Source: Micromonospora carbonacea (GTDB taxonomy: Bacteria > Actinomycetota > Actinomycetes > Mycobacteriales > Micromonosporaceae). From it: a DNA stretch of 64,000 nt. The notes under the pieces were generated by a model, which was given only the letters and a program-made list of their open reading frames with translations, was not told the origin of the DNA and ran no database searches. This document shows positions 1 through 9,194 of the stretch, one piece after another. Made by a program: the position numbers and the translations under genes. The DNA is taken from contig NZ_JACHMZ010000001.1 in the NCBI RefSeq assembly GCF_014205165.1, positions 6,368,501 to 6,432,500 of the forward strand, written 5' to 3'. Position 1 is the stretch's first letter. Each line of letters opens with the position of its first letter.

Positions 1-13
1 TGGTGTCGGTCAT
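1..13 (-). CDS. 5' end of a gene running off the left edge
   Basis: An ATG on the minus strand (positions 13-11) overlaps the TGA stop of the ATP-grasp gene (12-10) in an ATGA arrangement. The four visible codons read Met-Thr-Asp-Thr. The overlap suggests a downstream, translationally coupled gene in the same operon as the peptide ligase. Nothing more can be said because the window ends. Confidence 0.35.
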
Positions 14-1431
14 GCCGCACCGCCGACCAGCTCGGCGACGCGCTCGCCCACCCGCCGGTCCAGTTCGGCGACCTCGTCGGCCGAGCGGCCGACGACCATG
101 CCGTAGAGCCGGCCGTCGAACGTCGGGTGCGCCGCTCCGTCGCGGCCGTCGCCGGGTGCCGGGGCGGCCGCGTTCACGGTGGCGAAGTTGTTCACCAGGA
201 AGCCGACGCCGCTGCGGCGCTCGAACTGCAGTTCGCCCAGCACCGACCGCAGCCGGTGGAAGGCCACCGGCTGGCGCAGCCGCAGCGGGTAGTGCCGGGC
301 CAGCGCGATCGCGTCCGGCGGGATCAGCCGCTCCTGGATGCCCACCTGGTAGGTCGACATGTTGTTCCGGGCGTTGATCTCCACCAACGGGTAGAGCCGG
401 CCGTCGGGATCGATCATGGCGTCGATCCCGGCCACGCCGAAGTAACCGTCGCGGTGCAGCCGCGCGCCGACCGCGACGGCGACCTCGGCCAGCTCGGCGG
501 CCTGCGCCCGGGACAACCGGGCCGGGATGCGGTGGCCCTTGTGGATCCCGCCCTCGGTGATCGCCTCCTTGACGAAGTCGAGGTGGACGGCACCGTCGCG
601 GCCGACCGTCACCTGGTAGTTGAGGTCGGTCTCCTTGGCCACCCACTCCTCGACGACGACGTCGGCCCGGCTGCAACCGGCTCGTCGTTCCCGGGCCAGG
701 ATCATCCGGCACAGCCGCTCGAACCGACGGACGTCGTCCACCAGGGTGATGCCCCGCCCGGACACCCCGAGGGCGTCCTTCACGGCGAACCGGTGGCCGG
801 CGGCGAGCAGCTCGGCGACCGGACCGGCGACCTTCTCCAGCTCGTCGAGCGTTTCACAGGCCCACCCCGTCGGCTGGCGCAGGCCCAGCTCGTCGCCGAC
901 GCGTCGGCTGTAGATCTTGCTGTTCACCCGGATGCACAGCCGGGCGTCCGGCGCGCCCAGGGGCAGGCCGGTGGCCTCGGCCAGCTTCTCCTCCACCGCG
1001 GAGACGCCGTGCGGCCACAGCCGCGCGCCACCGGCGGCGAGCCGGCGCAGCTCGTCGACCAGCCGGGAGTCGGCCAGCGCGTCCTCGGTGACGGTCTGCT
1101 GGGCATCCTGGGAGCCGCAGGCCAGCACCCGCGGCACCGGGAGTTCGAGCTCGTGCAGGTAGGCCAGGTAGTCCGGATCCGGGGCCGCCTTGAGGACCAC
1201 GGTGTCGCCCGCGTCGCCGAGCAGCAGCGCGAACTCGTCCATCCGGTTCACCACGGCGCGGCTGCCCGCCGAGGACAGCCGCGGCAGGCCCGGCTGTTCC
1301 CGGGCCCACTGGTCCTCGACCTCGAAGTTGCCGAGCAGCACCAGTGGCCCCGGCGCACCGAGCGCGGACCGAATCCGTCCGAGGAAATCTGGTGGAGTCT
1401 CCGCCACGTGTCCCGTCCCGTCTGCGTGCAA
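10..1431 (-). CDS. ATP-grasp peptide ligase, PGM1-like
   Basis: This 473-residue protein looks like the peptide ligase family typified by PGM1 of pheganomycin synthesis, which joins a carboxylate to a peptide amine using ATP. Seen: an N-terminal pre-ATP-grasp segment (around residues 30-45, with GNFEVEDQW), a central ATP-grasp fold containing the glycine-rich KDALGVSGRG stretch (about 220) and the metal-ligand motif EINARNN near residue 355. The C-terminal block (FLVNNFATVN, then GRLYGMVVG) matches the PGM1 C-terminal domain as I know it. The annotated start is TTG; a GTG at 1407 is an alternative and neither has a strong ribosome site. It is divergent from the radical SAM gene and overlaps a further gene on its left. 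The substrate cannot be read from sequence; a RiPP or peptide-tailored product is inferred. Confidence 0.75.
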   Translation of the reverse strand: MHADGTGHVAETPPDFLGRIRSALGAPGPLVLLGNFEVEDQWAREQPGLPRLSSAGSRAVVNRMDEFALLLGDAGDTVVLKAAPDPDYLAYLHELELPVPRVLACGSQDAQQTVTEDALADSRLVDELRRLAAGGARLWPHGVSAVEEKLAEATGLPLGAPDARLCIRVNSKIYSRRVGDELGLRQPTGWACETLDELEKVAGPVAELLAAGHRFAVKDALGVSGRGITLVDDVRRFERLCRMILARERRAGCSRADVVVEEWVAKETDLNYQVTVGRDGAVHLDFVKEAITEGGIHKGHRIPARLSRAQAAELAEVAVAVGARLHRDGYFGVAGIDAMIDPDGRLYPLVEINARNNMSTYQVGIQERLIPPDAIALARHYPLRLRQPVAFHRLRSVLGELQFERRSGVGFLVNNFATVNAAAPAPGDGRDGAAHPTFDGRLYGMVVGRSADEVAELDRRVGERVAELVGGAA

Positions 1432-1751
1432 GCTGCCGGATGACGCCGATCAACATAGGCACTCGGTGCGATCCGGGGTAAGGACGGGAAGCGCGCACTT
1501 CCGAACCCGGCTGATCGGGTATGGCCGCCGGTCGCGCCGGACCATCGCCCGAATGTGTGCCCCGCACGACCGGGGGTGGTCTCGCCTGCGCTGCGTAGCA
1601 TGGCCGGGGAAGAGTCGAGCCAATTGGTTCGAGGCTTGCCCAGGATGCCGAAACGGCGTCCTCACCGGCCACGGGTGCCTAAAGGCGATACCGATTCCTC
1701 GTATCCGGGCGGTCGGAGCACAACCACCAACCGGACGCGGGAGCAATTTCT
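1432..1751. promoter_or_regulatory. divergent intergenic region, ligase/radical SAM
   Basis: These 320 bases separate two divergent genes and must carry both promoters. The radical SAM GTG start has a GGGAG ribosome site eight bases upstream. I found no convincing paired -35/-10 boxes, palindrome or conserved small ORF. Confidence 0.4.
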
Positions 1752-2909
1752 GTGAATGATTCGGAGAAACGTCGCCTTCGCCACGCGCTGGTCCGCGCGA
1801 ACATTGCCATTCGCGCTGGACGCCCACTCTACCCCGAATACAACAATGTATTCCTGCGCACCTACCCGGTGACCTTCGGCGCCCCCCGGATCGAATACCA
1901 GATGTATCAGTTCTGGTTCCGCACCCGAGGCTGCACGTACGATCGGGCCGGCCAATGCAGCATGTGCAACTACGGCATCGGCCCCGAAATCCGCCCGGAG
2001 GTCGTTGCCCATTCGGTCGAGCGCAAACTGGCCACCGTTCCCGAGGGCGCCTGCCTGTATCTTTCGCCGTCCGGGAGCCTGCTCGACGACCGGGAGGTGC
2101 CTGCGGAGATGCGCGACCGGCTGCTGCGCGCAGCGGCCGCGCGCCGCCCGGCCACGTTCGCGTTCGAGAGCCGCCCCGAGGTCTGCGACCGCGACAAGCT
2201 CGACCGGCTGCGGCGGTACTTCGCCCCCGGCACGCGGCTGGTGTGCCAGATCGGCGTCGAGTCGTGGGATCCGCAGGTGCGCTCGATGTGCCACCTCAAG
2301 CCGACCCGCCAGCAGGCCTATCTGGACACCGCGCGCACACTGCTCGACCTGGGCTTCGACCCGATCGCCAACATCACCCTCGGCGGCCTGGGCCTGTCGC
2401 CCCGGGAAGCCTACCTGGACACGCTGGCCGGGGTACGCGGTGCGCGGGCGGCCGGGTACCGCACCCAGATGGTCTTCCCGCTGAGCGCGAAGGCCGGCAC
2501 GCTGCTGGGCTGGGCGCACGACCAGGGGCTGTGGGAACCGCCGACGCTGTGGATGCTGGTCCGGCTGCTCGCCGCGTGCGCCGACGACGCCATCGGCCCC
2601 GACGGCTACGGCGACCTCGACATCTCCTGGTTCAACCCGCAGTTGGACGACGTCGTGCAGTCCCGGCCGGACAGCTGCGAGCTGTGCCGTCCGGTGCTGG
2701 TCGAGTCGCTGTCGGCGTTCCGGTTGCACCCCCGGGCCGACGCGCTGGCCCCGGCGATGGCGTGGGGCGACTGCCCGTGCCCCGCCCGGACCGACCGGCT
2801 GCTGGCCGACCCCGACCCGCTGGACCACCTCGATCGGCTGGTCGCGGTCGCCGACCGCTGGGCCGGCCAGGGCGACGCGCCGGACCGGCACGGGCTCGGC
2901 GTCGGCTGA
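1752..2909 (+). CDS. radical SAM protein, Elp3/RaSEA-like cluster motif
   Basis: The 385-residue protein has an atypical radical SAM cluster motif, RGCTYDRAGQCSMC at about residues 57-70, i.e. Cys-x7-Cys-x2-Cys followed by NYG, rather than the classical Cx3Cx2C. This spacing and context recall the Elp3 and archaeosine-synthase (RaSEA, TIGR01210) groups. Later motifs include SPSGS (strand 2), an ESRPE segment, and GVES, typical of radical SAM barrels. The C-terminal part carries a CELC pair and a CPC group that may bind a second metal site. The start is GTG with a GGGAG ribosome site. It stands opposite the PGM1-like ligase, suggesting the two modify the same product. The reaction is unknown; tRNA modification remains an alternative to peptide modification. 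Confidence 0.65.
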   Translation: MNDSEKRRLRHALVRANIAIRAGRPLYPEYNNVFLRTYPVTFGAPRIEYQMYQFWFRTRGCTYDRAGQCSMCNYGIGPEIRPEVVAHSVERKLATVPEGACLYLSPSGSLLDDREVPAEMRDRLLRAAAARRPATFAFESRPEVCDRDKLDRLRRYFAPGTRLVCQIGVESWDPQVRSMCHLKPTRQQAYLDTARTLLDLGFDPIANITLGGLGLSPREAYLDTLAGVRGARAAGYRTQMVFPLSAKAGTLLGWAHDQGLWEPPTLWMLVRLLAACADDAIGPDGYGDLDISWFNPQLDDVVQSRPDSCELCRPVLVESLSAFRLHPRADALAPAMAWGDCPCPARTDRLLADPDPLDHLDRLVAVADRWAGQGDAPDRHGLGVG

Positions 2910-3437
2910 CCGCGCGGGAGCCGCACCGCACCGCCGGCCGGCGCGGGCGGCCGCCCCGTCGCCGCGCCTGAGGCACGTGCGGCAACCCCGCGCCGCGACG
3001 GCCTCGGACGCGGTCGTGAACCGGACCCTTGCCGCCGCCACGCCACCGCGCCCGTCCTCGGACCGTGCGCCGCGGCACCCCCTGGGCGGCACCGTCCGAA
3101 CGATCATGGATCCCGACCGTCGACCGGCCTGGATAAGGCACTGCCCCAACCAGTCTGAACGCCTCGAAACTCCCCGCAGGGGACACCACGGACGCACCCG
3201 GTCAGCCCACCAGAGTCCTCATCACGCTCGAAACCCGAAACGTTACCCAAAACAGTGACAACAGTCAATTAATATCCCACGTTGCCAAGATCGATACGGC
3301 CACTCAGCCGTTTCACATGAGCCAACTGTTGACCAACGGCTCCGTGGGGGGTTGTCTATATAGGACGGAAGCTCGCCGACCGCCGCACGCCACAGCGGGG
3401 GAATCCGTGGTCGGCTGGTGACGAAGGGGGATCCATA
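2910..3437 (+). other. intergenic region before the peptide gene
   Basis: About 530 bases without a credible gene. Open frames here on both strands lack ribosome sites and recognisable protein character. The last 230 bases are clearly less GC-rich than the neighbourhood, as expected for a promoter and leader; the best promoter candidate is listed separately. Confidence 0.5.
3329..3362 (+). promoter_or_regulatory. candidate promoter for peptide-luxR operon
   Basis: A TTGACC hexamer (3329-3334) is followed by an AT-rich TCTATATA tract (3355-3362) about 75 bases before the GTG start at 3438. The gap to the best TATATA is 22 bases, longer than the usual 17-18, so the exact -10 is uncertain; it may need an activator. 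Confidence 0.4.
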
Positions 3438-3620
3438 GTGGATTTCGGAAGTCTGCCTTCCCTCGGAAGGCTCAGCAGCGAAGACTCGGGATACCGATCA
3501 GGGTTCGGCAACGCCGAATGCGGTCTGGTAACCGCGCTGCCGCTCCCGCTGTTCTCTGCGCACCCGGTCGGCGACCGACTCCGGCCGAACCGCGGCCTGA
3601 AGGGGATTCGCAAGCGATGA
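3438..3620 (+). CDS. small peptide, 60 aa, coupled to luxR
   Basis: A 60-residue reading frame with a GTG start and a very good ribosome site (AAGGGGG, seven bases upstream). Its TGA stop (3618-3620) overlaps the ATG of the LuxR gene, so the two are probably translated together. The N-terminal half is rich in Gly, Ser and acidic residues and has one Cys (in GNAECGL); the C-terminus is basic and ends GIRKR. It resembles no family I recognise. Given the nearby peptide ligase and radical SAM enzyme it could be a precursor peptide, but it could equally be a leader peptide controlling the regulator. Expression is supported by the ribosome site and overlap; function is inference. Confidence 0.55.
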   Translation: MDFGSLPSLGRLSSEDSGYRSGFGNAECGLVTALPLPLFSAHPVGDRLRPNRGLKGIRKR

Positions 3621-4288
3621 CCCAGATCGGATCGCGGGAAGTGCCGGTCGACCTCCGCCTCACCGTCGCCGTCTGCGCCAGCAATGAGCTCGTGCGCCGC
3701 GGCCTGAACTCCATACTGGACGACCTGGCCATCGTCGGAGACGATTTCTACTGCGAGAGCTGGGAACAGGCCTGCCAGCTCATGTCGGCCACCCCGGTCG
3801 ACATCCTGATCATCGCGGAGGCCGGCTACGGCGGCTGCCAACTACCGGACGGCGTCCAGACCAAGGTCCTCGTCCTGGTCGACGCGACCGACCTGCGCAC
3901 CGCGCTCAAGGACGCGCCCCCGTGGGCCCACGGATTCCTGGCCCGCCAGGATCTGACTCCCACCAGCATCGACGAGGCGGTCCGCCGGGTGGCCGTCGGC
4001 AAGAGCCAGATCCCGGCCCGACTCGCGAGCGAACTGATCCGCCGCGCGGCGGCCCCGCTGCCCGCGCGCGCAGCCCGACCGGCCAAGCTGACCAGCCGGG
4101 AGAGCGAGACCCTGGCGCTGCTCGCCGACGGGCTCAGCAACAAGCAGATCGCCCGTCGCCTGAGCATCTCCGACCACGGGGCGAAACGACTGGTGGCAAG
4201 CCTGCTGCTCAAGCTCGGCTCGCCCAATCGGACGATGGCCGTGGTCACCGCGATCAAGTCGGGGCTGATCGAACCGTCCCTGCTGTAA
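3617..4288 (+). CDS. LuxR/NarL-family regulator with degenerate receiver
   Basis: The 223-residue protein has an N-terminal receiver-like half and a C-terminal LuxR helix-turn-helix (about residues 150-215, starting LTSRESETLALLADGLSNK and continuing through the recognition helix). In the receiver half, the place where the phospho-accepting Asp is expected (after DILII) holds Ala, so control by ordinary phosphorylation is unlikely; ligand or peptide sensing is possible. I chose the ATG at 3617 because it overlaps the stop of the preceding small gene in an ATGA arrangement. A strong hairpin follows the gene. It probably regulates the surrounding locus. Confidence 0.75.
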   Translation: MTQIGSREVPVDLRLTVAVCASNELVRRGLNSILDDLAIVGDDFYCESWEQACQLMSATPVDILIIAEAGYGGCQLPDGVQTKVLVLVDATDLRTALKDAPPWAHGFLARQDLTPTSIDEAVRRVAVGKSQIPARLASELIRRAAAPLPARAARPAKLTSRESETLALLADGLSNKQIARRLSISDHGAKRLVASLLLKLGSPNRTMAVVTAIKSGLIEPSLL

Positions 4289-4813: not shown

Positions 4814-5890
4814 ATGGCCGACCGCAGCATGGCGTCCGAACTCCAGTCGGTGCAGACGACGGAGGCACTGGCCGGGTGCATCCGGAACCTGTTGTCCCGC
4901 AACGGCAATCTGTCCCTGCGGGAGTTGGAGTCGTGGGGGATCGCGCACAACCGCCCGATGCCCCGGGCTTCGCTCGGAGAGGCCCGCGCCGGAGTCCGGC
5001 CACCTGGCAGGCAACTCCTGCTCAATCTCCTCGTCGCCTGCGACGTCCGCGACGACCAGGAGGTGTCGGCGTGGCTCGACGCGCTCGACCGCATCCACAA
5101 GTCGAAGTCGATCCAGACCCGGCACCGCAGCTTCGGCGATCTGCAGCAGCCCGCCTCCGCCAACCGGTTCTTCGTGGAACAGGACGACCTGATCGAGATC
5201 TCCCGCCTGATCCAGGGCGCCCAGGACGAGGTATGGCTGTGGGGCACGACCCTGTCGATGCACATCCCCTTCCTCGACAACTATCTCGGGCAGGCGCTGG
5301 CCCGCGACGTCCGCGTCAAGGTTCTGCTGATCCGCCCCGGCGGAGCGGCAATGTCCATGCTGGCCTTCCGCGCGGGACCGGCTTGGGGCCTGACGAGGCT
5401 GGAGGAACACCTCGCCATCAACCTCGGACTGCTCGACCGGCGGCTCGAACAGGGCAACGCCCTCGAGGTGCGCCTGGTCGACTACCTGCCCCCGTACACC
5501 CTCTACGCCTACGATCCCGGACTCGACGACGGCTCCATGGACGTTCGCCTCGGCTCCTTCGGCGGCCAACACGAACTGCGGCCCACGTTCAGACTGAACC
5601 GCAGACGCGAGGGCGAGTGGTTCGACTACTTCTACGAGCAGTTCACCGGCGTGTGGAACGCCGCCAGCCCGTACCGCCGAGGTCAGGCACCCGACACGCC
5701 CCCCGCCGGCTCCGCGGCCGCTCGGCGGGCGGCCCCCGATGGCCACACCGACGGACGCCAGGTCGGCAGCGCGCGCTCCGCGCCGGCCCGGCCCGGCGGA
5801 GCGCGCCCTCACCCGGACCCCACGGGCGTCGCTGGCACACTTGGCGGGGAGGGTGATGACGATGCCGAGCGACACCCCCACGGGGACTGA
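4814..5890 (+). CDS. HTH protein with DUF5919 (PLD-like) domain
   Basis: The 358-residue protein starts at an ATG with a GGGGAGGG ribosome site. Residues about 10-90 resemble the XRE-type helix-turn-helix module common in actinomycetes (SLRELESW then a short spacer and the LLNLLVACDV segment). Residues about 110-280 match DUF5919, a phospholipase-D-like fold; I see no HKD pair, so catalysis is doubtful. The last 70 residues are low-complexity and Pro/Ala/Arg-rich. It overlaps the following NPCBM gene by 35 bases. A role in signalling or DNA-dependent regulation is inferred; no enzyme activity can be claimed. Confidence 0.6.
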   Translation: MADRSMASELQSVQTTEALAGCIRNLLSRNGNLSLRELESWGIAHNRPMPRASLGEARAGVRPPGRQLLLNLLVACDVRDDQEVSAWLDALDRIHKSKSIQTRHRSFGDLQQPASANRFFVEQDDLIEISRLIQGAQDEVWLWGTTLSMHIPFLDNYLGQALARDVRVKVLLIRPGGAAMSMLAFRAGPAWGLTRLEEHLAINLGLLDRRLEQGNALEVRLVDYLPPYTLYAYDPGLDDGSMDVRLGSFGGQHELRPTFRLNRRREGEWFDYFYEQFTGVWNAASPYRRGQAPDTPPAGSAAARRAAPDGHTDGRQVGSARSAPARPGGARPHPDPTGVAGTLGGEGDDDAERHPHGD

Positions 5891-6610: not shown

Positions 6611-7306
6611 TCACGGCGTCGGGAGGTCCACCGCCCGCGTCGCCCAGCGGCGCAGCAGGGCCGGGTCGTGGGTGATGAGCAGGACCCCCGCGCCGGTGCG
6701 GCGCTGGTAGTCGCCGACGACGGCGGCGACGTGGGCCTGGGTGGAGGCGTCGAGCATGGCGGTGGCCTCGTCGCAGAGCAGGTAGTCGGGCCGGTGCACG
6801 AGGGCGCGCGCGAGGCAGGCGCGTTGCAGTTGCCCGTCGCTGACCGCGTGGGGGCGGCGGGCGAGCAGATCGGGGGTGAGGCCGACCAGGTCGGCCAGCT
6901 CGGCGGTACGGGCGGCCGCCTGGTCGCGGGGGACGCCGGTGGCGCGGAGCGGTTCGGCGACGAGGTCGGCGAGGCTCAGCCGGGGGTCGGTGGCGGCGCG
7001 GGGGCTCTGGAACAGGATCGCGACGCGGGTCCGCAGGGCGGCGGGCACCCGGTGCCGGACGCCGGCGACGGGCCGCCCGCCGATGGCGACGTGCCCGCTG
7101 TCGGGGGCGTGCAGGAGGGCGAGGACGCGGGCGAGGGTGGACTTGCCGCTGCCGGAGGGCCCGCGCAGTCCGACCGTCTCGCCGGGGGCGACGTGCAGGT
7201 CGACCCGGTCGAGGACGCGCTGCCGGCCGTAGCGGACGGTGACCCGGTGCGCGGCGAGCCCGCCGGCTGCGGCCCCGTGCGTGGTGTCGTCGGTCGTCGC
7301 GGTCAT
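6611..7306 (-). CDS. nikE: ABC transporter ATPase, NikE/DppF type
   Basis: The 231-residue ATPase has Walker A (GPSGSGKST, about residue 50), a Q-loop (FQSPRAA), the signature AVSDGQLQRACLARAL and Walker B (YLLCDEATAML), followed by the switch His (LLITHD). It couples ATP hydrolysis to uptake by the permeases encoded upstream. Its ATG overlaps the stop of the other ATPase gene, and it is the last gene of a five-gene coupled operon. The signature SDGQ replaces the usual SGGQ, a conservative change. The nickel assignment rests on the Nur-like site at the operon promoter; a peptide importer is the alternative. Confidence 0.75.
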   Translation of the reverse strand: MTATTDDTTHGAAAGGLAAHRVTVRYGRQRVLDRVDLHVAPGETVGLRGPSGSGKSTLARVLALLHAPDSGHVAIGGRPVAGVRHRVPAALRTRVAILFQSPRAATDPRLSLADLVAEPLRATGVPRDQAAARTAELADLVGLTPDLLARRPHAVSDGQLQRACLARALVHRPDYLLCDEATAMLDASTQAHVAAVVGDYQRRTGAGVLLITHDPALLRRWATRAVDLPTP

Positions 7307-8298
7307 CCGGGTGCTCCGGGGGTGAGCCGGTGGTGGCAGGCGACCCGCCCCGGGCCGTCGGGCACGAGGCGGGGTGGCGTGCGGCAGGCGTCGCCGGCGT
7401 GGGGGCAGCGTGGGGCGAAGGCGCAGCCGTCGGGCAGGTCGGTGAGCATGGGCGGATGACCGGGCACGGGCGTGAAGGCCCGGTCCGGCAGGGCGTCGAG
7501 CAGCCCGGCGGTGTAGGGGTGGGCGGGGGCGTCGAACAGGGCGGCGGTGGGGCGGTGTTCGACGATGCGGCTGGCGTACATGACGGCGACGGTGTCGGCG
7601 ACGCGGCGGGCGGCGGCAAGGTCGTGGGTGATGAGCAGGACGGCCGCGCCGCTGTCGCAGCGGCGGCGCAGCAGGTCGAGGGTGTGGTCGACCAGGGGCC
7701 GGTCGAGGCCGGTGGTGGGTTCGTCGGCGAGCAGCAGCGGCGGGTCGGGCGCGAGGGCCAGGGCGGTGGCCAGCCGCTGGGCCGTGCCGCCGGACAGCTC
7801 GTGGGGGTAGCGGTCCAGGTCGCCGGGGTCGAGTCCGACGGCGGCGGCGATCCGGTCGGCGGCGGCGGGGGCGGCGCGGCGGGCATGCCCGTGGGCGCGC
7901 AGCGTCTCCTCCAGCAGCCGCCGGCCGCTGCGCACCGGGGTGAGCGCGGTGGCGGGGCTCTGCGGGACGAGGCCGACGACGCGGCCGCGCACGTGGCGGG
8001 CGAGGTGTCGTTCACCGGCGTCGACCAGGTCGACGGGACGGCCGCCCGGCGGGTGCAGGTGGGCGCGGCCGGTGACGGTGGCGTTGCGCGGCAGCAGGCC
8101 GAGCAGGGCATGGGCGAGGACGGACTTTCCGCAGCCGGACTCACCGACGACGGCCAGCAGCTCGCCCGGGCGCAGGGTGAGGCTCAGGTCGGTGACGGCG
8201 TGCACGGTGCCGCCCGGGAGGCGGAAGCGGACGGTGAGCCCGTCGACGCCCAGCAGGGCCGCCGCGCGGCGGGTGTCGGTGCGGACGGCGGCGGTCAC
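7303..8298 (-). CDS. nikD: ABC transporter ATPase, NikD/DppD type
   Basis: The 331-residue ATPase has Walker A (GESGCGKS), signature LSGGTAQRLATALAL, Walker B (LLLADEPTTGLD) and the switch ITHD. The C-terminal extension with the Cys pattern CAFAPRCPHAGDAC (about residue 295-310) is the oligopeptide/nickel ATPase tail, which in relatives can carry a metal cluster. The GTG start at 8298 overlaps the stop of the permease gene (GTGA); reading further upstream only continues into the permease in another frame. It energises import together with the smaller ATPase. Confidence 0.78.
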   Translation of the reverse strand: MTAAVRTDTRRAAALLGVDGLTVRFRLPGGTVHAVTDLSLTLRPGELLAVVGESGCGKSVLAHALLGLLPRNATVTGRAHLHPPGGRPVDLVDAGERHLARHVRGRVVGLVPQSPATALTPVRSGRRLLEETLRAHGHARRAAPAAADRIAAAVGLDPGDLDRYPHELSGGTAQRLATALALAPDPPLLLADEPTTGLDRPLVDHTLDLLRRRCDSGAAVLLITHDLAAARRVADTVAVMYASRIVEHRPTAALFDAPAHPYTAGLLDALPDRAFTPVPGHPPMLTDLPDGCAFAPRCPHAGDACRTPPRLVPDGPGRVACHHRLTPGAPG

Positions 8299-9194
8299 AG
8301 GTGCAGCTCCGCCCGGACGCGGGGGTCGAGGCGGTCGCGCCAGCGGCCGGTGAGCACGGCGAGGGCGAGGGTGACCGCCACGAGGAGGAGGCCGGGGACG
8401 ATGCTGGCCCACCAGGCGCCGGTGAGCAGGGACCGCTGCCCGTCGTTGATCATGTTGCCGATGGAGGCGAGGTGCGGGGGCAGCCCGAGGCCGAGGAAGG
8501 ACAGGGCGGTCTCGTGCCAGACGGCGTGCGGCACCATCAGGGTGGTGGCCAGGGCCAGCCGCGGCAGGACGTGCGGCAGCAGGTGCCGGGTGAGCACCCG
8601 GGCGCGGGAGGCCCCGCCGGAGATGGCGGCGTCGACGAACGGGCGGGTGCGCAGGCTGAGCAGCTCGGAACGGACGATGCGGGCCGTGGACAGCCAGTGC
8701 GTCAGCCCGATCGAGGCGACGACGGCGCCGAGGCTGGGGCGCAGCATCGCGACGACGAAGATGCCCAGCAGCAGGTGCGGCAGGGCGGCGACGGTGTCGA
8801 CGACGCGCATGAGGGCCCGGTCGACCCGGCCGCCGAGGGTGCCGGCGACCGCGCCGACGAGGCCGCCGACGACGGTGGCCACCAGGGCGGCGACCGCGCC
8901 GACCAGCAGCGACACCCGCAGGCCGTAGAGGCTGCGCAGCGCCACGTCGCGGCCGAGGTCGTCGGTGCCGGCCAGGTGGTCGGGCGAGGGCGCGAGGCGG
9001 GTACGGGCGAGGTCCACCGCACTCTGGTCGAGTGGCCACAGCAGCGGCGCGAGCAGGCACGCGGCCACCGCGGCGGCGAGGACGCCGACGGCCGCCCCCG
9101 CGCCGAGGCGGCCACGGCGGGACCGGGCCGGCGGGCGGCGGGCCGGGCGGGTGCGGGTCGGGGTGGCGACCGGCGGCGGGGCGAGGTCAGTCAT
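8295..9194 (-). CDS. nikC: ABC transporter permease, NikC/DppC type
   Basis: The 299-residue permease has an N-terminal Pro/Arg-rich cytoplasmic tail, a first membrane segment (about 32-55), the periplasmic GTDDLGRDV motif characteristic of the DppC/NikC family, and four to five further membrane helices. The coupling loop that contacts the ATPases (GGASRARVLTRHLLPHVLP) is around residue 195-213. The ATG at 9194 overlaps the last codons of the partner permease. It forms the membrane channel with the NikB-type subunit. Confidence 0.78.
   Translation of the reverse strand: MTDLAPPPVATPTRTRPARRPPARSRRGRLGAGAAVGVLAAAVAACLLAPLLWPLDQSAVDLARTRLAPSPDHLAGTDDLGRDVALRSLYGLRVSLLVGAVAALVATVVGGLVGAVAGTLGGRVDRALMRVVDTVAALPHLLLGIFVVAMLRPSLGAVVASIGLTHWLSTARIVRSELLSLRTRPFVDAAISGGASRARVLTRHLLPHVLPRLALATTLMVPHAVWHETALSFLGLGLPPHLASIGNMINDGQRSLLTGAWWASIVPGLLLVAVTLALAVLTGRWRDRLDPRVRAELHL

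Follow-up and report, generated by a model that had tools for sequence, protein, structure and literature searches.

What is made at a locus where an ATP-grasp ligase gene lies opposite the gene of an unusual radical S-adenosylmethionine (SAM) enzyme, close to a 60-codon open reading frame (ORF) and a LuxR-type regulator? This question is raised by the first 4288 nucleotides of a 64,000-nucleotide stretch of Micromonospora carbonacea DNA (the window; G000:C1:6368501-6432500), which lies within a single-contig genome of 7.53 Mb. A first-pass annotation had suspected an extension of the locus to the left of the window. Reading of the left flank showed that there is one, and that the window contains the right end of a cluster of 26 genes spanning approximately 32 kb (genome positions about 6,340,853 to 6,372,788). 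It is probable that this cluster directs the production of a DNA-binding pyrrole-amide of the congocidine/netropsin type carrying a new acyl building block.

Gene content of the cluster

The ATP-grasp ligase gene (minus strand, 10-1407) has its stop codon at 10-12, overlapping the start codon (ATGA) of a gene for a BtrK-like pyridoxal phosphate (PLP)-dependent decarboxylase of 429 residues. Of the latter gene, also on the minus strand, the first codons lie in the window (1-13); it exits the window leftwards, with the remainder at L010:7227-8513. Further leftwards on the minus strand follow genes for an acyl carrier protein (ACP), a MATE exporter, a ketoacyl-ACP synthase III (KASIII), KAS2 (a working name for a protein without a family in the position of a KAS partner), X229 (a protein of 229 residues), an acyl-CoA dehydrogenase, a stand-alone carrier protein and a transglutaminase-like protein. 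Beyond these are genes for a UvrA-like protein, an aldehyde dehydrogenase, another transglutaminase-like protein and a LuxR protein paralogous to that of the window. A plus-strand set encodes an alcohol dehydrogenase, a glycoside hydrolase (GH), a DegT aminotransferase, a glycosyltransferase, an epimerase, a UDP-sugar dehydrogenase, an AMP-ligase, a nucleotidyltransferase and an amidase, and the last gene of the left flank, on the minus strand, encodes a condensation-like protein. In the comparisons below, the ATP-grasp, BtrK-like, ACP and KASIII genes are referred to as the module, and the GH, DegT, glycosyltransferase, epimerase, UDP-sugar dehydrogenase, nucleotidyltransferase and alcohol dehydrogenase genes as the sugar set.

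The stand-alone carrier protein matches PF00550 (peptidyl carrier protein, PCP) and the amidase carries the amidase signature PF01425, while the ACP has AmcB as its best NCBIfam match (45 bits against a cut-off of 80). The Cys-His-Asn residues of the KASIII protein, at positions which we take to be those of FabH, are kept in all seven module-bearing clusters described below. The best 50 Foldseek rows obtained with a predicted structure of X229 (pLDDT of only 58) were acyl-CoA dehydrogenases or members of that superfamily, part of the rows being ones that we presume to belong there.

The right edge of the cluster was placed at the LuxR gene (plus strand, 3617-4288), since the ORFs to the right of position 4288 (ORF5, ORF6 and two ABC genes) had no match at E 1e-8 in four related loci.

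Conservation and distribution

These related loci were found by scanning genome contigs with 30 aligned radical SAM sequences, which returned 20 pattern stretches, four of them confirmed: in Micromonospora sp. ATCC 39149, Lentzea aerocolonigenes NBRC 13195, Sinosporangium album and Streptomyces olivaceoviridis. With the flanks extended, all 26 cluster genes were present in both Micromonospora sp. ATCC 39149 and L. aerocolonigenes. The loci of S. album and S. olivaceoviridis share the ligase, BtrK-like, ACP, KASIII, KAS2, X229, acyl-CoA dehydrogenase and aldehyde dehydrogenase genes, together with the carrier protein, the MATE exporter, one LuxR gene, the sugar set and the radical SAM gene. Genes consistent with beta-keto processing are also present, one of them FabG-like at the locus of S. 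olivaceoviridis and others HadA/HadB-like and phosphopantetheinyl transferase-like at that of Sinosporangium. The ligase and radical SAM genes stand together in all four of these loci encoding the radical SAM protein, which agrees with the first-pass view of the two as members of one system extending to the left. It should also be noted that the GH gene of Micromonospora sp. ATCC 39149 (G694:C4, about 6737267-6739116) is present as two overlapping pieces, reflecting either an error in the sequencing or a true interruption in that strain.

Three cluster genes showed 90–96% DNA identity to their Lentzea counterparts (L021-L023), against 84% for the rpoB core, and 93–97% identity to those of Micromonospora sp. 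ATCC 39149, where the rpoB core is 97.8% identical. Because the Lentzea cluster genes are more alike than rpoB, these sequence comparisons suggest that the cluster moved horizontally between families.

Within the order, the GH gene was found in four of 397 genomes, namely that of M. carbonacea itself, G866, G131 and G034, the G866 match coinciding with the Lentzea match in contig number, coordinates and score. G131 and G034 contain the sugar set and a complete module, and a genome-wide search of both returned no radical SAM gene. This brings the module-bearing clusters to seven in total, five of which have the radical SAM gene. In a Streptomyces sample, the GH gene was detected in six of 392 genomes. 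The stretches around these six genes (16–40 kb) gave no match to the ligase, BtrK, KASIII or the radical SAM protein, and genome-wide searches of the same six likewise gave no radical SAM (E 0.001) and no ligase (E 1e-20) match. The UvrA-like gene lies beside three of the six Streptomyces sugar sets; these clusters (G1193, G1043 and G1053; L046-L051) are probably further, different DNA-binder clusters.

Proposed pathway and product class

From this gene content we infer the reactions as follows. The enzymes of the sugar set (nucleotidyltransferase, UDP-sugar dehydrogenase, epimerase, glycosyltransferase, GH, DegT and alcohol dehydrogenase) would convert a sugar into an aminopyrrole carboxylate, which the AMP-ligase and the stand-alone carrier protein would activate. 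The ATP-grasp ligase would place an acidic amino acid, glutamate if the BtrJ precedent applies, on the ACP, and the BtrK-like enzyme may, by the same analogy, decarboxylate it to an omega-aminoacyl-ACP. KASIII and its partner protein would then add a C2 unit, with the oxidation state being set by the aldehyde dehydrogenase and by the acyl-CoA dehydrogenase acting with X229 as its putatively degenerate partner. The radical SAM enzyme may perform an extra tailoring step, either on this unit while it is bound to the ACP or on the completed molecule. Joining of the units would fall to the condensation-like and transglutaminase-like proteins and export to the MATE protein, while the UvrA-like protein would protect the host DNA and the two atypical LuxR regulators would control the cluster.

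Several parts of this scheme have parallels in the literature. The pyrrole precursor is described as deriving from N-acetylglucosamine (PMC10058459), the orphan LuxR regulator Cgc1 as controlling congocidine (PMC11784345) and UvrA-like genes as conferring self-resistance (PMC10413001). As presented in these and related sources, the congocidine/distamycin systems (cgc, pya) appear to resemble the present cluster in their sugar-type aminopyrrole genes, stand-alone carrier protein and orphan atypical LuxR regulator (PMC4047045, PMC11784345, PMC10058459). The cluster described here differs from them by the addition of the ATP-grasp/BtrK/ACP/KASIII/acyl-CoA dehydrogenase module and of the radical SAM, transglutaminase-like and UvrA-like proteins. 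The gene-by-gene roles of the cgc and pya counterparts are taken here to be those that we presume for them, and on that basis the functional classes of a gene set for sugar-derived 4-acetamidopyrrole-2-carboxylate can be recognised in the cluster and its relatives. A further apparent difference is that an amidase-signature protein is encoded here and an amidohydrolase there; the PF01425 amidase might replace the pyrrolamide amidohydrolase (Cgc14/Pya25).

A number of observations weigh against the assignment to a pyrrole-amide. The likeness of the sugar set to the congocidine pyrrole pathway, and with it the class assignment, is drawn from what we take to be the functions of the cgc genes. A Pfam scan covering 24 of the 26 cluster proteins gave no match to the PF04909 amidohydrolase family, and the condensation-like protein matched PF00668 no better than at E 0.026, which is below the cut-off. 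With 906 bits, the UvrA-like protein exceeds the 730-bit threshold of TIGR00630, a model for ordinary uvrA, and three further UvrA-like matches are present in the same genome (G000:C1:1731135, 3051165 and 6553165). No match at E 1e-8 was obtained for the UvrA-like, transglutaminase and condensation-like proteins in the stretches from Sinosporangium and S. olivaceoviridis, nor for the amidase in that of S. olivaceoviridis. The product could be something other than a pyrrolamide, for example a compound decorated with an aminosugar or amino acid, the sugar set yielding a sugar instead of a pyrrole. No N-methyltransferase was noticed by eye in the cluster, as would suit such a product, and UvrA-like genes are also reported with anthracycline and aureolic-acid products (PMC10413001). 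This alternative is nevertheless considered rather unlikely: the GH and alcohol dehydrogenase genes occur together in all twelve other clusters, with the remaining sugar set in 11 of the 12 (the exception, G1079, being one in which only 18 kb was read), and the G1193 sugar-set cluster contains non-ribosomal peptide synthetase (NRPS) modules and a PF04909 amidohydrolase, which are features of described pyrrolamide clusters (PMC4047045).

Role of the ATP-grasp ligase

The ligase is 465 residues long when read from a GTG start codon, or 473 from an upstream TTG at 1431. It had been called PGM1-type in the first-pass annotation, and this is borne out in part: the protein matches the PreAtp-grasp domain PF18604 (78 bits, cut-off 27.5), but it has no match to PGM1_C (PF18105) at E 0.01. 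Among the best 120 of 670 matches, however, a homologue that is 58% identical (P0162) bears PF18105 and is named PGM1-related, which makes the family name a fair guess.

Gene context suggests a more specific role. In butirosin biosynthesis, an ACP, an ATP-grasp ligase and a decarboxylase (BtrI, BtrJ and BtrK) are encoded together, and the same arrangement of an ATP-grasp gene with an ACP and a BtrK-like decarboxylase gene is found here. The nearest solved structures to the BtrK-like enzyme are those of BtrK itself (2j66/7ru7, E 5e-87, 296 bits), the next being a diaminopimelate decarboxylase (168 bits). The cluster differs from the butirosin system in that KASIII and a pair of acyl-CoA dehydrogenase-type proteins accompany the set, and the likeness of the ligase to BtrJ is one of gene context. 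A comparison can also be drawn with the type II polyketide synthase-like cispentacin proteins AmcB-AmcH, as the ACP has AmcB as its best match and a small non-aromatic unit is built on a discrete ACP in that system; the difference is that AmcH is described as an adenylating 2-oxoglutaryl-ACP ligase, whereas an ATP-grasp enzyme and a KASIII-type ketosynthase are found here (PMC10698177).

The ligase was detected in all seven module-bearing clusters and in none of the six Streptomyces sugar-set genomes lacking the module (Fisher P 0.0006, which is only a guide because the clusters are related and five of the seven, including that of the window, entered through the radical SAM search). A search for the ligase family in 200 genomes of the order at E 1e-60 found six places in five genomes: the window, G131:C233, L057, L059 (G156), L060 (G830) and L061 (G131:C226). 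In L059, L060 and L061, which were found independently of the sugar genes, KASIII lies on one side of the ligase and the BtrK-like gene on the other, and L060 additionally shows the start of an ACP gene. These three loci represent a recurring putative aminoacyl-ACP cassette outside sugar-set clusters.

Two routes can be weighed against this pattern. The ATP-grasp protein may be an amide ligase of the PGM1/Ant23 kind, attaching an amino acid to the aminopyrrole or to an amino acid, with the BtrK-like and KAS proteins making a separate unit. The PreAtp-grasp domain and the PGM1-related homologue P0162 would fit such a role, as would the anthelvencin pathway, in which aminopyrrole bound to a PCP is reportedly the substrate of the ATP-grasp protein Ant23 as amide ligase, a role different from carrier-protein loading. 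It is, in our view, the less convincing route and rather unlikely: the protein is missing, genome-wide at E 1e-20, from all six Streptomyces sugar-set genomes, whose pathways would presumably need amide bonds too, but is present in every cluster with BtrK, ACP and KASIII, and it lies between the KASIII and BtrK-like genes in the three independent loci. The L057 locus has no other cluster genes in its 4.4 kb, but ketosynthase-like and FabG-like ORFs adjoin the ligase there when judged by eye. As the ligase follows BtrK and KASIII also outside this type of cluster, loading of a carrier protein is favoured over peptide ligation, and by analogy with BtrJ the most likely substrates of the ligase are an amino acid and the ACP to which it is attached.

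The radical SAM enzyme

The radical SAM gene (plus strand, 1752-2909) is divergent from the ligase operon, as the first-pass annotation had stated, and the intergenic region (1408-1751) shows a DNA identity of 88% to Lentzea and 94% to Micromonospora sp. ATCC 39149. The protein of 385 residues is RaSEA/Elp3-like and contains the Cx7Cx2C cluster noted earlier, namely C61-x7-C69-x2-C72. Cysteines 61, 69, 72, 180, 309, 312, 341 and 343 are invariant in all 30 aligned sequences.

RaSEA (TIGR01210) was the only NCBIfam family matched at E 0.001, in 30 of 30 members. The protein of the window scored 87.3 bits against a cut-off of 212, and a search of its own genome with TIGR01210 likewise remained below the cut-off. 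Besides this lower score, the family differs from RaSEA in being bacterial and encoded in a metabolite cluster, and in its invariant C-terminal cysteines 309, 312, 341 and 343, which are described here for the bacterial family alone. RaSEA is described as converting preQ0-lysine in tRNA to archaeosine, a modification given as specific to archaea (PMC11298593). Since TIGR01210 also matches in the control genomes of E. coli, Thermotoga and Lactococcus, and archaeosine is archaea-specific, the match is taken to mark a neighbourhood within the superfamily. A good AlphaFold2 model (pLDDT 88) had Elp3, queuine lyase and NifB as tied nearest folds, and a profile search of PDB sequences returned Elp3 and queuine lyase weakly (E 0.002–0.005).

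The gene is rare, occurring in one of 300 genomes of the family and in one of 396 of the phylum, in both cases the M. carbonacea genome itself. Of 7996 candidates scored, 37 were homologues, with listed names of 'radical SAM', 'hypothetical' or a family-level name at most. Nineteen of these lie on contigs of at least 25 kb: ten were paired with a GH homologue by an equal length of the longest contig, which serves as a proxy, Sinosporangium being the one among them that was also read, and two more (P0001 and P0006) have the GH gene directly nearby, the remaining seven being left out of the count. The gene might be a chance neighbour lying outside the cluster, as its absence from the module-bearing G034 and G131 could suggest, but it stands divergent from the operon bearing X229 and the acyl-CoA dehydrogenase gene in all four named loci and accompanies GH in those 12 of the 19 homologues, which makes such a coincidence highly improbable. 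As two of the genomes with a complete module lack the gene, the enzyme is instead read as an optional addition to the cluster, carrying out an optional tailoring step.

No described counterpart of this step was found in the literature searched. Known pyrrolamides are described as carrying amidine tails, such as 3-aminopropionamidine (PMC4047045). These tails and the analogy with RaSEA give rise to the speculative idea, which we consider unlikely, that an archaeosine-synthase-like enzyme has been recruited to metabolite biosynthesis and cuts the C-N bond of an N-substituted amidine so that an unsubstituted amidine is left, or performs a similar reaction at a C-N bond, the substrate being the amino-acid-primed, ACP-built tail of a minor-groove-binding pyrrole-amide. 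No ArcS-like protein was noticed among the annotated cluster genes, an observation that comes from the annotation and not from a search with an ArcS model.

The 60-codon ORF and the LuxR regulators

The original suggestion of a peptide-modification locus included a 60-codon ORF (3438-3620), the product of which was seen as a peptide coupled to the regulator; its stop codon runs into the start of the LuxR gene at 3617. Most of this frame is included in a segment of upstream or leader DNA (plus strand, 3300-3616) that is conserved in all three close clusters. The 60-residue product had no family match in Pfam or NCBIfam scans. In Lentzea, the frame contains a one-base gap and its C-terminus is different. 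The substitutions between the window and Lentzea fall 16, 19 and 13 times on codon positions one, two and three of the ORF, compared to 13, 12 and 28 times in LuxR, so that the third-position share is 13/48 and 28/53, respectively (P 0.014). Against Micromonospora sp. ATCC 39149 the ORF is open and 80% identical, with an NG86 nonsynonymous rate (dN) of 0.098 and synonymous rate (dS) of 0.183, the LuxR values being 0.023 and 0.127; for this pair alone the third-position share of the ORF is not distinct from that of LuxR (P 0.26). It was also unmatched in the stretches of Sinosporangium and S. olivaceoviridis (E 1e-8), G034 (E 1e-6) and G131 (E 1e-5), where a short, diverged protein is easily missed. 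We read the 60-codon frame as a chance ORF within leader DNA.

The LuxR protein contains a GerE DNA-binding domain and a weak match to Sigma70_r4_2 (Pfam, E 0.01), its N-terminal region is unrecognised by Pfam, and no receiver domain (Response_reg) was found by Pfam at E 0.01, so it was rightly called atypical. The regulator is part of the locus, as had been proposed, but as one of two paralogues, the other being encoded at the left side of the cluster, and it is not tied to the peptide: in Lentzea the radical SAM gene and the LuxR gene stand at opposite ends of the cluster, and the leader DNA that again precedes the LuxR gene has an interrupted frame.

These results bear directly on the first proposal, a locus akin to those of ribosomally synthesised and post-translationally modified peptides (RiPPs) with the 60-residue peptide as substrate. 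What can be said for it is the overlap of the ORF with the LuxR start and the open frame in the window and one other Micromonospora. The broken frame and lack of a third-position excess in Lentzea, the position of leader and LuxR gene away from the radical SAM gene there and the missing matches in the four other stretches (with the limit on short proteins given above) speak against it, as does the partnership of the ligase with a BtrK-like decarboxylase, an ACP and KASIII. It is accordingly regarded as extremely improbable that this is a peptide-modification locus, and the absence of conservation of the peptide ORF was itself named in the first-pass annotation as an outcome that would count against it.

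Neighbouring DNA

Beside the cluster, a 358-residue ORF (window 4814-5890) had no Pfam or NCBIfam match and was unmatched in the four related loci. Outside the conserved cluster, on the minus strand at 6611-9060, are genes that by eye resemble those for the ATP-binding components of a peptide/nickel-type ABC transporter. In addition to the LuxR paralogue (L002), the DNA of the window also matches short GC-rich stretches elsewhere in the same genome.

Significance

The best reading of the system is a new variant of the pyrrolamide-type cluster. The UvrA-like gene would point to DNA as the target of its product. For the 'PGM1-related' ATP-grasp proteins, the cluster would offer a link to carrier-protein loading, in a KASIII/ATP-grasp/BtrK neighbourhood that recurs outside this cluster type, and for the bacterial RaSEA-like family it would offer a testable substrate context. 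Should the amidine idea be true, chemistry that finishes archaeosine in the tRNA of archaea would have been reused for a DNA-binding antibiotic. If the proposed product class is true, the cluster would define a branch of the pyrrolamide-type DNA binders in which one building block is made by an amino-acid-primed mini fatty-acid pathway.

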